From Acidobacteriota bacterium (GTDB lineage Bacteria; Acidobacteriota; Terriglobia; Terriglobales; Acidobacteriaceae): DNA of 64,000 nucleotides. Both the position numbers and the translations under genes were made by a program. The notes beneath the pieces are model-generated. The model had not been told where the DNA came from and searched no databases. It saw nothing but the letters and a program-made list of their open reading frames with translations. The stretch lies in NCBI GenBank assembly GCA_021778845.1, contig JAJYBU010000001.1:1-64000 (forward strand). The letters run 5' to 3'. Shown here piece after piece: positions 8,601-12,628 of the stretch. Position 1 is the first letter of the stretch. Each line of letters starts with the position of its first letter.

Positions 8601-9560
8601 ATGACCATTTCCCCCTCCAGCCTCCTCGGCGTCAGTCTCCTCGACCGCATCGGCAACACGCCCCTCCTGCGTCTCGACCGCCTCACCGCGCACCTTCCCG
8701 GCATCCAACTCCTCGGCAAAGTCGAGTGGGTCAACCCCGGTGGCAGCATCAAGGACCGCGCCGCCTCCAGCATCGTCCAGGCCGCCATCCGCGAAGGCAA
8801 ACTCACCCCCGGCCACGCCAGCAAGTCTCTCCTCGACGCCACCAGCGGCAACACCGGCATCGCCTACGCCATGCTCGGCTCCGCCATGGACTTCCCCGTC
8901 ACCCTCTGCATGCCCTCCAACGTCTCCCCCGAGCGCAAAAACATCCTCGCCGCCTACGGTGCCCACATCATCTGGACCGATCCCGCCGACGGCTCCGACG
9001 GCGCCATCCGCAAAGCCCGCGAACTCGCCGCCACCGAGCCCGGAAAATACTTTTACGCAGACCAGTACGGCAACGAAAACAACTGGCTGGCCCACTATCG
9101 CGGCACGGCCAACGAAATCTGGGAGCAAACCGAAGGCCGCGTCACCCACTTCATCGCGGGTCTCGGCACCAGCGGCACCTTCATGGGCACCACCCGCCGC
9201 CTCCACGAGCTCAACCCGGCCATCCAGTGCATCTCCATGCAGCCCGACTCGCCCTTCAACGGCTTCGAGGGCCTCAAGCACATGGCCACCGCCATCGTCC
9301 CACCCATCTACGACCCCACCCTCGCCGACCGCAACATCGACATGCCCACCGAACGCGCCTACATCATGGCCAAGCGCCTCGGCCGCATGCAGGGCCTGCT
9401 CGTCGGAGTCTCCGCCGCCGGAGCCGTAGCCGCCTCCCTCGGCATCGCCGAAGAAGAAGCCCGCGCCGGCCGCGAGGCCGTCATCGTCACCATCCTCTGC
9501 GACTCCGCCGACAAGTACCTCAGCGAACGCTTCTGGACCGAACCCACCGCAGGCGAATAG
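8601..9560 (+). CDS. cysM: Cysteine synthase, CysM type
   Basis: PLP-dependent beta-replacement enzyme forming cysteine from an activated serine and a sulfur donor. K51 in PGGSIKDRA is the Schiff-base lysine, TSGNTGIA is the substrate-loop motif and GLGTSGTFMG the phosphate-binding loop. The length of 319 residues fits. The JAMM peptidase, the sulfur carrier and the MoeZ-like activator follow on the same strand, as in the CysO-CysM-Mec system of actinobacteria. This suggests that the sulfur donor is a protein thiocarboxylate and the acceptor O-phosphoserine; that substrate assignment is inference from context. Confidence 0.9.
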   Translation: MTISPSSLLGVSLLDRIGNTPLLRLDRLTAHLPGIQLLGKVEWVNPGGSIKDRAASSIVQAAIREGKLTPGHASKSLLDATSGNTGIAYAMLGSAMDFPVTLCMPSNVSPERKNILAAYGAHIIWTDPADGSDGAIRKARELAATEPGKYFYADQYGNENNWLAHYRGTANEIWEQTEGRVTHFIAGLGTSGTFMGTTRRLHELNPAIQCISMQPDSPFNGFEGLKHMATAIVPPIYDPTLADRNIDMPTERAYIMAKRLGRMQGLLVGVSAAGAVAASLGIAEEEARAGREAVIVTILCDSADKYLSERFWTEPTAGE

Positions 9561-9598: not shown

Positions 9599-10060
9599 AT
9601 GCCCCTACGAATCCCCCAATCCCTCTACAGCGACCTCCGCGCCCACGGCGAAGAAACCTACCCCCACGAGTGCTGCGGCATCCTCCTGGGCAAATCCGAC
9701 ACCGAAACCCTCACCGTCCACCAGCTCATCCGTGCCGGCAACACCCGCACCGACAGCGCCCACAACCGCTACCACATCGCCCCCCAGGAATTAATCGCCG
9801 CCCAGCGCCAGGCCCGCAAGTCCGGCCTCGACATCGTCGGCTTCTACCACTCCCACCCGGACCACCCCGCCCAGTGGTCCTCCACCGACTTCGCCGAGGC
9901 CCACTGGTTCGGCTGCGCCTACGTCATCACCTCCGTCGATGGCGACAAGACCAAAGGCGCCGCCCAGATCACCAACAGCTTCCTCCTCACCGGCACCAGT
10001 GAAGACGACAAAGCCTTCCTCCCCCAGCGCATCGAATTCGATTCACCCGCATCCAACTAG
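9599..10060 (+). CDS. JAMM/MPN metallopeptidase, Mec-like
   Basis: A 153-residue zinc peptidase of the Mov34/MPN/PAD-1 family. The JAMM site is complete: E24 in HECCGILLG, H84 and H86 in HSHP, S94 and D97 in SSTD. In the mycobacterial pathway Mec cleaves cysteine from CysO-cysteine, and the related QbsD trims the tail of a carrier to expose its diglycine. It lies 38 bases after cysM and two genes before a carrier whose diglycine is followed by 13 residues, so both trimming and cysteine release are plausible roles here. The small size means a stand-alone JAMM domain without partner domains. Confidence 0.88.
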   Translation: MPLRIPQSLYSDLRAHGEETYPHECCGILLGKSDTETLTVHQLIRAGNTRTDSAHNRYHIAPQELIAAQRQARKSGLDIVGFYHSHPDHPAQWSSTDFAEAHWFGCAYVITSVDGDKTKGAAQITNSFLLTGTSEDDKAFLPQRIEFDSPASN

Positions 10061-10069
10061 CGAGGCCCG

Positions 10070-10501
10070 ATGTTCAACAAGATCGCCATAGCCTACGACG
10101 AATCAACCTCCGCAGAGCACGCCCTTGCGAAAGCCATCGCACTCGCCGCTGCACTCGGTTCCACGCTCCGCATCATCACCATCGTCGAACCGCTCCCCGC
10201 CTACGTCAACATCGCACTGGCGCTCGACGGCAACCTCCCCCAGCAGCTTCTCAACGAGCGCCGCCAACGCCTCGCGCAGACCCACAAGCTTGCCCTCGCC
10301 CACGCAGCCGACGCCGGCGTAACCGCCGAAGCCGTCCTCGTCGATGGCCGCGAGGTCGAAGGCATTCTCGCCGAGATCGCGTCCTACGGTGCCGACCTCC
10401 TGGTCATCGGCCTCAGCCAGCATCACGGCTTTGGCGAGATGAGCAGCACCGCCCACCGTATCTCCCTGCAAGCACCCTGTCCGGTCCTCGGCGTCCACTA
10501 A
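10070..10501 (+). CDS. Universal stress protein (UspA family)
   Basis: The single-domain, 143-residue protein starts MFNKIAIAYDESTSAEHAL, with the first beta strand and the conserved Asp of the Usp fold, and ends ISLQAPCPVLGVH. The ATP-binding G-x2-G-x9-G-S/T loop is imperfect (IGLSQHHGFGEMSSTAHRIS), so nucleotide binding is doubtful. It begins 9 bases after the JAMM gene and is inside the cysteine gene cluster; whether it has any role there is unknown. Confidence 0.85.
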   Translation: MFNKIAIAYDESTSAEHALAKAIALAAALGSTLRIITIVEPLPAYVNIALALDGNLPQQLLNERRQRLAQTHKLALAHAADAGVTAEAVLVDGREVEGILAEIASYGADLLVIGLSQHHGFGEMSSTAHRISLQAPCPVLGVH

Positions 10502-10642: not shown

Positions 10643-10954
10643 ATGAACATTCACATTCCCACCCCGCTGCGCACCTACACCGACAAGCAGGAGACTGTCT
10701 CCGTCGATGGCGCCACCGTAGCCGAAGGCCTCGCCGCTCTCACCGCAGCCTTCCCCGCCATGCACCAGCACCTCTTCACCGCCGAGGGCAAACTGCGCTC
10801 CTTCGTCAACGTCTATCTCAACGACGACGACGTCCGCTACCTCCCCGCCAAAGAAGATTCCCCCGTCGCCTCCACCGACGAGCTCACCATCATTCCGTCC
10901 ATCGCCGGTGGCACTCCTGGCATCCCCTGCCGCCTGCCCGGTTGTTGTCGCTAA
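10643..10954 (+). CDS. ThiS/MoaD-like sulfur carrier, CysO-type, with C-terminal extension
   Basis: The 103-residue beta-grasp protein begins MNIHIPTPLRTYT, has GKLRSFVNVYLNDDDVRYL and reaches IIPSIAGG, where G89-G90 is the diglycine that would be adenylated and thiocarboxylated. In active ThiS, MoaD and CysO the diglycine is the C-terminus; here 13 residues follow (TPGIPCRLPGCCR, three cysteines) before TAA. The stop codon coincides with the first bases of a dispersed repeat (from 10953). Activity would need proteolytic trimming, for which the nearby JAMM peptidase is the obvious candidate. The ATG at 10643 has GGAG about 16 bases upstream. A plausible partner of MoeZ and CysM. Confidence 0.85.
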   Translation: MNIHIPTPLRTYTDKQETVSVDGATVAEGLAALTAAFPAMHQHLFTAEGKLRSFVNVYLNDDDVRYLPAKEDSPVASTDELTIIPSIAGGTPGIPCRLPGCCR

Positions 10955-11051
10955 GGCCGTTCGCCTTCAGGTGTAGTCGCAATCATTTTGATGGTTGTCA
11001 TTCCGTAGCGAAGCGGAGGAATCTGCTCCTTGAACCGGCGACTACACCTGA
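10953..11051 (+). repeat. Dispersed repeat A, copy 1, with 14-bp terminal inverted repeats
   Basis: Bases 10953-11042 match 53319-53408 at 85 of 90 positions without gaps. In this copy the ends form a perfect 14-bp inverted repeat (10967-10980 with 11038-11051), giving an 85-bp MITE-like unit. It carries an internal TGTCATTCC...GAAGCGGAGGAATCTGCT stretch (10996-11031) related to other short repeats in the window. It begins at the stop codon of the carrier gene. No coding capacity. Confidence 0.85.
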
Positions 11052-11083
11052 TGGCCATCCGCTCTCCCCCCCCCCCACAAACC

Positions 11084-11138
11084 CTGTCATCCTGAGCGAA
11101 GATTCGCGGGTTCTCGCGAATCGTAGTCGAAGGACCCC
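11084..11138 (+). repeat. TGTCATCCTGAGCGAAG-type repeat with hairpin
   Basis: The unit reads TGTCATCCTGAGCGAAG, then an 8-bp hairpin (11101-11108 with 11115-11122), then GTAGTCGAAGGACCCC. Similar TGTCATYCYG...GAAG(C)GRAGGA words occur at 10996, 12697, 16634, 20240, 20309 and 53363. This is a short dispersed intergenic repeat family. The flanks (10955-11407 overall) hold only repeats and the promoter described separately. Confidence 0.6.
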
Positions 11139-11240
11139 GACGCTGCCTGCACGACCCATACAGCCCGTGTCTTTTGCCGATAAGCCCCGCGTCTTCCCTC
11201 ACCTCCGCACATCCAATCATCAAGCCGGCCTTGACACCCT

Positions 11241-11285
11241 TGCTATAATTACAAGAGCAAGAACAGCCCGGCCAACCTGCCGGGC
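11241..11285 (+). promoter_or_regulatory. Extended -10 promoter and leader hairpin before the MoeZ-like gene
   Basis: TGCTATAAT (11241-11249) is an extended -10 with a perfect TATAAT. The TTGACA at 11231 is only 7 bases away and cannot be its -35. About 17 bases downstream a perfect GCCCGGC/GCCGGGC hairpin (11266-11272 with 11279-11285, 6-base loop) begins, followed by CTTCGCGTTT. The transcript would carry a leader of about 150 bases before the ATG at 11408, and the hairpin could act as an attenuator. Confidence 0.5.
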
Positions 11286-11305
11286 CTTCGCGTTTAAGAC
11301 AGGAA

Positions 11306-11334
11306 GGCGGACTTCCATAAGTCCACACCTAACC
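11306..11334 (+). repeat. Dispersed repeat B, copy 1
   Basis: A 29-base core is identical at 26 of 29 positions to 53512-53540. It contains a small hairpin (GGACTT/AAGTCC) and ends CACCTAACC. About 25-35 bases later both loci have AAAGTAC followed by a G run (11370-11375 here). Repeats A and B occur in the same order and orientation at both loci. Confidence 0.7.
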
Positions 11335-11407
11335 GCAGCCTTGCAAGGACTTTAGGTCAGAAAGTACCTGGGGGGACCCCCACCCACCAGCTAAACTGGA
11401 AGGACAC

Positions 11408-12628
11408 ATGATCGCCACTGCCACCGAAACCGCCACCCTCCCCAAACTCACCAACGAGGAGATCGCCCGCTACTCCCGCCACCTCATCCTGCCCGAAGTC
11501 GGCATGGAGGGCCAGCAGAAACTCAAGGCCGCCAAGGTCCTCTGCGTCGGCACCGGCGGCCTCGGCGCGCCGCTCGCCATGTACCTCGCAGCAGCCGGGA
11601 TCGGCACCCTCGGTCTGGTCGACTTCGACGTCGTCGACGAGTCCAATCTCCAGCGCCAGATCATCCACTCCCAGGCCACCGTCGGCAAGCTCAAAGTAGA
11701 CTCTGCCGAGATCATGCTCAACGGCCTCAACAAAAACACCCGCATCGTCAAGCACAACACCATGCTCACCAGCGCCAACGCGCTCGAGATCTTCCGCGAC
11801 TACGACGTCATCGCCGACGGCACCGACAACTTCCAGACCCGTTACCTCGTCAACGACGCCTGCGTGCTCACCGGCAAGCCCAACGCCTACGGCAGCATCT
11901 TCCGCTTCGAAGGCCAGGCCAGCGTCTTCGCCACCGAGACCGGCCCCTGCTACCGCTGCCTCTATCCCGAACCGCCACCGCCGGGCCTGGTCCCCTCCTG
12001 CGCCGAAGGCGGCGTCCTCGGCATCCTCCCCGGACTCCTCGGCATCATCCAGGCCACCGAGGTCATCAAGCTGATCCTCGGCATCGGCGATCCTCTCATC
12101 GGCCGCCTCCTGCTGGTCGACGCCCTCGGCATGAGCTTCCGCACCATGAAGCTCCGCAAGAATCCCGACTGCCCCATGTGCGGCACCAACGAGATCAAAG
12201 AACTCATCGACTACGACCAGTTCTGCGGCATCCCCAAGCCCACCGAACTCGGCCCGCTCGAGGTCAGCTCCCACGGCAAAATCGCCAATCTCCCCGTCGT
12301 CGACGGCATCCCGCAGATGACCGTCGAGCAGCTCAAAGCCCGCATCGACGCAGGCACTGCGCCCTTCGTCCTCGACGTCCGCGAGCCCCACGAGTACCAG
12401 ATCGTCGACATCGGCGCACCGCTGATCCCCGTCGGCGATCTCCCCAACCAGCTCCACCGTCTCACCTTCCCGAAGACCACCGAAATCGTCATCCATTGCA
12501 AATCCGGTGCCCGTTCCCAGCGTGCAGCTCTCTTCCTCAAAGAGCAGGGCTACACCAACGTCAGCAACCTCGCTGGCGGCATCCTCGCCTGGGCCGACCG
12601 CATCGACAAGACCCTGCCCAAGTACTAA
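11408..12628 (+). CDS. moeZ: MoeZ/MoeB-like adenylyltransferase with C-terminal rhodanese domain
   Basis: The E1-like enzyme adenylates the C-terminal glycine of a sulfur carrier and then supplies sulfur through its rhodanese domain. The 406 residues hold an N-terminal ThiF domain with nucleotide motif GTGGLG (48-53), conserved C198 in PSCAEGG, two zinc CxxC pairs (C181/C184 and C255/C258) and a C-terminal rhodanese domain (about 305-405) with active-site C364 in HCKSGARS. This two-domain layout matches MoeZ, which activates CysO and MoaD in actinobacteria. A GGAAGGA site precedes the ATG. It has its own upstream promoter and a strong terminator after the stop. Confidence 0.94.
   Translation: MIATATETATLPKLTNEEIARYSRHLILPEVGMEGQQKLKAAKVLCVGTGGLGAPLAMYLAAAGIGTLGLVDFDVVDESNLQRQIIHSQATVGKLKVDSAEIMLNGLNKNTRIVKHNTMLTSANALEIFRDYDVIADGTDNFQTRYLVNDACVLTGKPNAYGSIFRFEGQASVFATETGPCYRCLYPEPPPPGLVPSCAEGGVLGILPGLLGIIQATEVIKLILGIGDPLIGRLLLVDALGMSFRTMKLRKNPDCPMCGTNEIKELIDYDQFCGIPKPTELGPLEVSSHGKIANLPVVDGIPQMTVEQLKARIDAGTAPFVLDVREPHEYQIVDIGAPLIPVGDLPNQLHRLTFPKTTEIVIHCKSGARSQRAALFLKEQGYTNVSNLAGGILAWADRIDKTLPKY

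Follow-up and report, generated by a model that had tools for sequence, protein, structure and literature searches.

Why should a bacterial sulfur carrier be translated with 13 residues beyond its diglycine (GG), and why should a JAMM peptidase be encoded beside it? The question is raised by a gene cluster in the window, a stretch of 64,000 nucleotides (positions 1 to 64,000 of contig JAJYBU010000001.1, assembly GCA_021778845.1) from an Acidobacteriota bacterium of the family Acidobacteriaceae. The presence of JAMM proteins beside bacterial sulfur carriers has been a puzzle, because the end of CysO and other well-known carriers is exposed without any trimming. We propose, with a probability of about 0.8, that the carrier would be synthesised as an inactive precursor and cut after G90 by the JAMM protein of the same cluster, that the ThiF-rhodanese protein (E1) would then adenylate the freed diglycine and convert it to a thiocarboxylate, and that the thiocarboxylated carrier would hand its sulfur to CysM for the production of cysteine. 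The tail would be a removable cover of largely free sequence, which in relatives ranges from one residue up to a whole E1. In these soil bacteria, masking most likely serves to make exposure of the ends depend on one neighbouring protease. The proposal is built on what was observed directly, namely the sequences, the masking throughout the family, and its association with JAMM in the genomes compared; the tail in the window is one case of a rule of masked sulfur carriers. The genes concerned are as follows.

8601–9560, + strand: cysM-like cysteine synthase (PALP, Pfam 1.1e-62; structures 2bhs, 9.7e-60, and 3dwg_A, 1.9e-50)
9599–10060, + strand: JAMM/MPN+ metallopeptidase, the proposed maturase (Prok-JAB, Pfam 4.1e-25; closest solved structure 2kcq)
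10643–10954, + strand: carrier gene of the ThiS/MoaD family, 103 residues
10643–10912, + strand: carrier body, residues 1–90, with the GG end (G89, 10907–10909; G90, 10910–10912; ThiS, Pfam 5.7e-11, residues 3–90)
10913–10951, + strand: carrier tail TPGIPCRLPGCCR, 13 residues, masking the GG; last codons TGT TGT CGC (10943–10951)
11408–12628, + strand: MoeZ-like E1, ThiF adenylyltransferase plus rhodanese (Pfam 4.1e-78 and 6.6e-15, respectively)

Masking of the carrier in the window and in its relatives

Translation of 10643–10954, which ends in IIPSIAGG-TPGIPCRLPGCCR, confirmed the extension of 13 residues with three cysteines after G89-G90 that the first-pass annotation had described. The body is closest in the Protein Data Bank to chain C of 3dwg (1.7e-13), a small, GG-terminal CysM partner that we take to be CysO. 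The beta-grasp ThiS domain and the conserved diglycine place the protein in the ThiS/MoaD family, from which it departs in that the diglycine is not the translated C-terminus. In an AlphaFold2 model, the predicted local distance difference test score (pLDDT) was about 90 across most of the body and below 50 at residues 88–103. The neighbouring JAMM protein retains HSHPDHPAQWSSTD, which fits the metal-site motif HSHP-x6-S-x2-D, as well as the glutamate within YPHECCG; the first-pass annotation had described a full zinc site. With residues after the GG and a genomic JAMM whose metal-site motif is intact, the pair fits a JAMM-matured ubiquitin-like precursor.

The carrier was compared with its relatives in a set of 205 distinct carriers, composed of same-genus loci, 80 named loci, and family-wide loci. 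Nearly all are from Acidobacteriaceae, with a few from elsewhere (e.g., loci L101, L116, L117, and L119–L121); L225 and L088 were dropped because their frames leave the contig, and L105 was counted among the fused carriers though its frame is broken by N. A GG was present near the expected position in every relative matched, and none was dropped for a missing GG. Residues follow the GG in 203 of the 205 carriers: 181 have tails of 1–32 residues, and in 22 the reading frame continues into the E1. The two GG-terminal exceptions are L286 (genome G087) and the Rhodothermales locus L116. In the genus of the window, all 25 loci read extend past the GG, with 17 ending in CCR or CCCR and two in CCCL. 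The orthologue comparison proposed in the first-pass annotation thus showed family-wide masking, with the sequence of the tail itself mostly free and its place taken in fused carriers by an enzyme of approximately 400 residues. The annotation had regarded the 13-residue tail as a longer proprotein; the precursor part of this claim is well supported by comparison, and the special role of the length is not. Since tails vary from 1 to 32 residues or are replaced by the E1, there is nothing particular to 13 residues in the proposed maturation.

The possibility of a tail confined to one strain is refuted by the tails of the relatives, including two single-contig genomes. A sequencing error is very unlikely as its source, because the relatives carry tails of their own: a 96% identical relative (L004) ends in CTLTGCCR, and the carriers of the two congeneric single-contig genomes have the tails GGCCR (L014) and GGADCLCCCL (L023). 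The short post-GG tails LAGRCR and SPGGRCL were seen in carriers of Rubrobacter/Rubrobacteraceae (L119 and L121), an actinobacterial lineage, and masking therefore extends past Acidobacteriota.

Among the 183 non-fused carriers, a tail length of 0 occurs in two and a length of 1 in 38. Because a neutral tail is expected to have length 0 about as often as length 1, these counts, which are not corrected for ancestry, suggest that an exposed GG is disfavoured. The reason is perhaps uncontrolled maturation, or the action of a wrong E1 on the exposed end, but this is a guess.

Fusion of the carrier to its E1

Carriers outside the family were collected from 50 other Acidobacteriota genomes, 14 of the 64 matching genomes being left out. 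Among these 51 carriers, 33 are E1-fused, 11 are tailed, and seven are GG-terminal. Pfam searches with six carrier-E1 fusions found ThiS, ThiF, and rhodanese in all six, with the rhodanese ahead of ThiF in two. This swapped order, ThiS-rhodanese-ThiF, occurs in L399 (1325–2788, − strand) and L402 (1334–2806, − strand). As the E1 is fused in frame, a free GG can be obtained from such proteins only through cleavage. A tree of 139 E1 sequences, 43 of them fused, required about 15 changes between the fused and split states, as against a mean of 36.7 and a minimum of 31 in 500 shuffles of the labels, and rooted parsimony assigned the split state to the root. The fused and split states thus interchange over time, with the GG exposed in neither. 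AlphaFold2 gave a poor model of the carrier-E1 fusion from Terriglobus roseus (mean pLDDT of 60.6 with eight sequences), which supports no claim.

Other sulfur carriers of the same genomes

Masking is not limited to the carrier of the cysteine cluster. The genome of the window is about 89% complete, and each of the four members of the ThiS/MoaD family detected in it is masked. A second CysO-like carrier of the genus, approximately 40% identical, is masked in all 26 copies read (L002 on contig C76 of genome G000, L027, L028, L030–L032, and L178–L197). It follows threonine synthase in both loci tested, L002 and L030, and a thiocarboxylate route to another amino acid is possible. Of 13 ThiS loci of the genus that were read, 12 encode residues past the GGG end, and none is fused to an E1. 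All 11 MoaD proteins read are masked, ten being long fusions and one ending in GGRQ; two listed MoaD places were left out of this count, and Pfam scans of three of the fusions detected the MoaE half in each. In total, 23 of the 24 ThiS and MoaD proteins read are masked, so that the terminal diglycine ascribed to ThiS and MoaD by the first-pass annotation does not apply in these genomes. The same JAMM protein would probably mature these carriers too, i.e., ThiS, the MoaE-fused MoaD, and the second CysO-like carrier.

Distribution of the JAMM peptidase

If JAMM is the maturase, masked carriers should be confined to genomes that encode it. JAMM was searched with the profile PF14464, genomes with no match at E ≤ 0.001 being called JAMM-free, and every PF02597 protein listed in a selection of 18 genomes was read, 53 in all (two of the genomes had none). 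In eight JAMM-free genomes from five families, 21 of 21 ThiS/MoaD-family proteins are GG-terminal (24 of 25 if the doubtful genome G288 is added), while 16 of 28 are masked in seven JAMM-containing genomes outside the family. Fisher's test of JAMM against masking gave 9.5e-6 without G288, 2.6e-5 with it, and 1.6e-9 when the 23 of 24 ThiS and MoaD proteins of the genus were added, all three values ignoring shared ancestry. Of the 44 outside-family genomes holding masked carriers, 43 have a PF14464 match above the cut-off, the exception being G376. JAMM was also found in all 24 genomes of the genus that have the main carrier and in all 24 family genomes subjected to a whole-genome search, and its motif lies inside the fetched locus for 168 of the 205 carriers. 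The genome of the window has a single JAMM match at E ≤ 1e-8, and 26 of 28 same-genus genomes have a match. Three of the seven outside-family genomes with GG-terminal carriers (G367, G388, and G282) have no PF14464 match, and a fourth, G288, has a weak one.

Several observations weigh against the maturation proposal. Masking does not follow automatically from the presence of JAMM: three genomes (G298, G275, and G273) combine JAMM with a GG-terminal carrier, as does G087 with its carrier L286, and masking in G351, G365, and G290 is limited to the E1-fused carrier. In the draft genome G376, which consists of 650 contigs, a fused carrier occurs without a clear JAMM. G288, placed in the JAMM-negative group, has a weak PF14464 match over the cut-off (32.5 bits), and it is the sole genome of this group with a masked protein, a MoaD-MoaE fusion (three of its four proteins are GG-terminal). 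One of the 16 masked proteins, L457, joins a ThiS-like domain to a phosphotransferase and is perhaps not a sulfur carrier at all. The neglect of shared ancestry in the Fisher values and the omission of 14 of 64 genomes from the count of 51 carriers count on the same side. Our reading of the whole is that the presence of JAMM would permit masking and its absence would forbid it, which agrees with the prediction for a maturase.

The proteolytic maturation suggested in the first-pass annotation is well supported by comparison, that is, by the family-wide masking, the E1 fusions, and the association of masked carriers with JAMM, and it appears to reach well beyond the 13-residue tail for which it was conceived. 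JAMM cleavage after the GG is the likely mechanism; we infer the cut, its position, the sulfur chemistry, and the service of one JAMM to all carriers from sequence comparison. Because masking tracks JAMM across genomes, the peptidase acquires a clear general job as a maturase, a role predicting that a single JAMM knockout would block several sulfur pathways together.

Relation to known systems

JAMM removal of short tails from bacterial sulfur carriers is known from QbsE/QbsD and HcyS/HcyD, and Mec acts on the CysO-cysteine adduct. One study reportedly addresses MoeZR and cysteine biosynthesis. The actinobacterial CysO/CysM/MoeZ/Mec system has the same partners as the cluster described here (CysM, rhodanese-E1, and JAMM), and its carrier type, 3dwg chain C, is the closest solved relative of ours; however, that chain is GG-terminal, whereas the GG of the window family is covered by a tail or an E1.

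Operon type 4c, comprising ThiS/MoaD, E1-rhodanese, JAB, and cysteine synthase and including Solibacter usitatus (Acidobacteria), was described by Iyer, Burroughs, and Aravind (2006; PMC1779556), who already proposed that JAB frees fused ThiS/MoaD. All four genes of this type are present in the window; carrier tails, the carrier-E1 fusion, and genome-wide masking are not mentioned in the accessible part of that paper. In Deinococcus, DRJAMM cleaves MoaD-MoaE to leave a C-terminal glycine and is required for activation (PMC8832034), and in M. tuberculosis a cut past the second glycine of MoaX is needed for its function (PMC4326299). In both, an internal diglycine must be freed by cleavage, as proposed here. 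Their partner is MoaE; the present genomes add ThiS and a second CysO-like carrier, as well as masking by tails or by an E1, and show an association with JAMM from genome to genome. An archaeal enzyme, CsRpn11, takes a nine-residue post-GG tail off CsUb-pre (PMC6043591). That tail also starts with cysteine and is removed by a JAMM enzyme, but it serves ubiquitin-like tagging and not sulfur transfer. Archaeal MoaD-MoeBR fusions with more than 55% identity to proteins of Acidobacteria (PMC11237513) and Ubl-E1 fusions (PMC2948915) likewise join a carrier to its own E1, with no tie to JAMM or to the tails of split relatives in the portions seen. A literature search, which left subscription journals mostly outside its reach, found nothing on carrier tails of Acidobacteria, JAMM-linked genome-wide masking, or the TGT bias described below. 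The tails and E1 fusions may be regarded as a bacterial parallel of ubiquitin precursor processing.

Cysteine codons and alternative explanations of the tail

The tails are rich in cysteine, and their cysteines are encoded in an unusual manner. In 88 short tails, the cysteine codons are TGT in 151 cases and TGC in 23, as against 199 and 1446, respectively, in neighbouring genes; in a larger set, the ratio of TGT to TGC is 148:18 for cysteines in runs and 44:38 for isolated cysteines, shared ancestry being ignored in these counts. The other tail codons ending in T or C are only mildly shifted (98:211 and 20:32). TGYTGY is always in the cysteine frame (97 of 97; TGTTGT, 78 of 78), and this frame is kept across tails as dissimilar as CCR, CCSCCPLL, CCCL, and CCCPACCCR. 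Cysteine is the most frequent first post-GG residue (50 of the 183 non-fused orthologues), CC is present in 51 of the 183, and no cysteine follows the GG in 73 of them. Taken together, the codon bias and the frame hint at a role at the level of translation more than at thiol chemistry.

These features bear on what the tail is. It may be a neutral leftover, in which case a carrier-E1 fusion would have been split by a stop codon and the JAMM-trimmed remnant would drift. Such an origin would suit the numerous fused/split changes on the E1 tree and the wide variation of tail length and sequence, and also a resemblance, noted by eye, between the in-frame segment lying between the GG and the cysteine run in L056–L058, L080, and L089 and the repeat-like post-stop sequence of L060, L099, L107, and L144. 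However, it predicts near-equal numbers for lengths 0 and 1, against which stands the uncorrected 2 versus 38; the parsimony root is split, so that an ancestral fusion is not established; ThiS is tailed too with no E1 fusion among those read; and the TGT bias and fixed cysteine frame are unexpected for a remnant. We consider this origin possible, though somewhat doubtful. The end may instead be a translation-level cysteine sensor, at which ribosomes would slow at tandem UGU codons near the stop when cysteine is scarce, thereby altering the expression of the carrier or the E1. The bias toward TGT in runs, the invariable frame, and the mild shift of other codons point in this direction, and polycysteine short open reading frames of mycobacteria are reportedly cysteine-responsive attenuators (Canestrari 2020, as cited in PMC9031893 and PMC13236596). 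In the window, the tandem in-frame codons (TGTTGT) end the carrier gene itself and not a separate upstream short open reading frame. In opposition to such a sensor, no 3' attenuator structure common to five clades was found, only clade-specific hairpins; an Rfam search with eight loci gave nothing better than E 0.26; TGTTGTTGT shows no excess in the genome of the window (27 sites versus 27 for the reversed control); CC is found in a minority of the non-fused carriers; the codon counts disregard ancestry; and stalling at the end of the gene would reduce, not increase, carrier output under starvation. We therefore regard a sensor as unlikely, although the UGU-rich tails do raise the question whether a ribosome might read a disposable protein end as a nutrient sensor. 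A bolder combination, in which essentially all Acidobacteriaceae carriers (for cysteine, thiamine, and molybdopterin and the one linked to threonine synthase) would be locked as precursors under a single JAMM, which would gate thiocarboxylate sulfur transfer throughout the cell, and the tail in several lineages would have become a cysteine gauge of tandem UGU codons read by the ribosome, is similarly speculative and improbable.

It is still less probable that conservation of the end reflects a motif in DNA or RNA (a hairpin or an operator) and not a peptide. In many Granulicella loci, TGTTgTCGC is able to pair with the post-stop GCGAgAACA, and in the Terriglobus albidus clade TGTTGTC has the same relation to GACAACA; these inverted repeats span the stop codon with loops of varying length. 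Yet the window locus (L001), L004, L012, and L019 keep the cysteine codons without the right arm, the Granulicella arms are unpaired at the middle G, no common fold was found for the other clades, and the cysteine frame is invariably kept. A redox switch, in which the tail cysteines would gate processing or activity, was put forward in the first-pass annotation on account of the three cysteines. The prominence of cysteine directly after the GG would accord with it, but so many non-fused orthologues (the 73 above) lack any post-GG cysteine that the claim is not supported; moreover, no cysteine run is present in the E1-fusion junctions listed for the outside-family set, and thiol chemistry leaves the codon and frame bias unexplained. 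Such a switch is highly improbable.

With respect to the sequences around the tail, GCGAGAAC is retained 3' of the carrier stop at varying distance in L006–L009, L011, L013, L016, L018, L020, and L024, and is almost complementary to TGTTGTCGC, which ends the tail. Several of these loci also have GAGCATCTG(C/T)TCT a second time, upstream of their E1 gene.

Other features of the locus

The first-pass annotation had placed CysM, JAMM, the carrier, and the ThiF-rhodanese protein together, and these assignments were supported by Pfam and NCBIfam (for the cysM-like gene, TIGR01138 cysM, 6.7e-96, under the equivalog cut-off). It had omitted a universal stress protein gene, which together with a REP-like repeat interrupts the cluster:

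10070–10501, + strand: gene for a universal stress protein, 3' of JAMM and 5' of the carrier (Usp, Pfam 1.3e-24)
10956–11065, no strand assigned: REP-like repeat immediately 3' of the carrier stop, with 20 other copies of at least 86 bases in the genome

The repeat was considered as the origin of the tail and ruled out for the window, because the repeat match starts past the stop codon. Shorter part copies of the family also occur in the genome of the window; its members include loci L034–L040. The masked protein L457 (1201–2616, + strand) has its ThiS-like domain, with GG, ahead of an APH-family domain and reaches the end of the fetched stretch. Between the carrier and the E1 gene, a GC-rich stem (11265–11286) has a terminator-like score on the − strand only.

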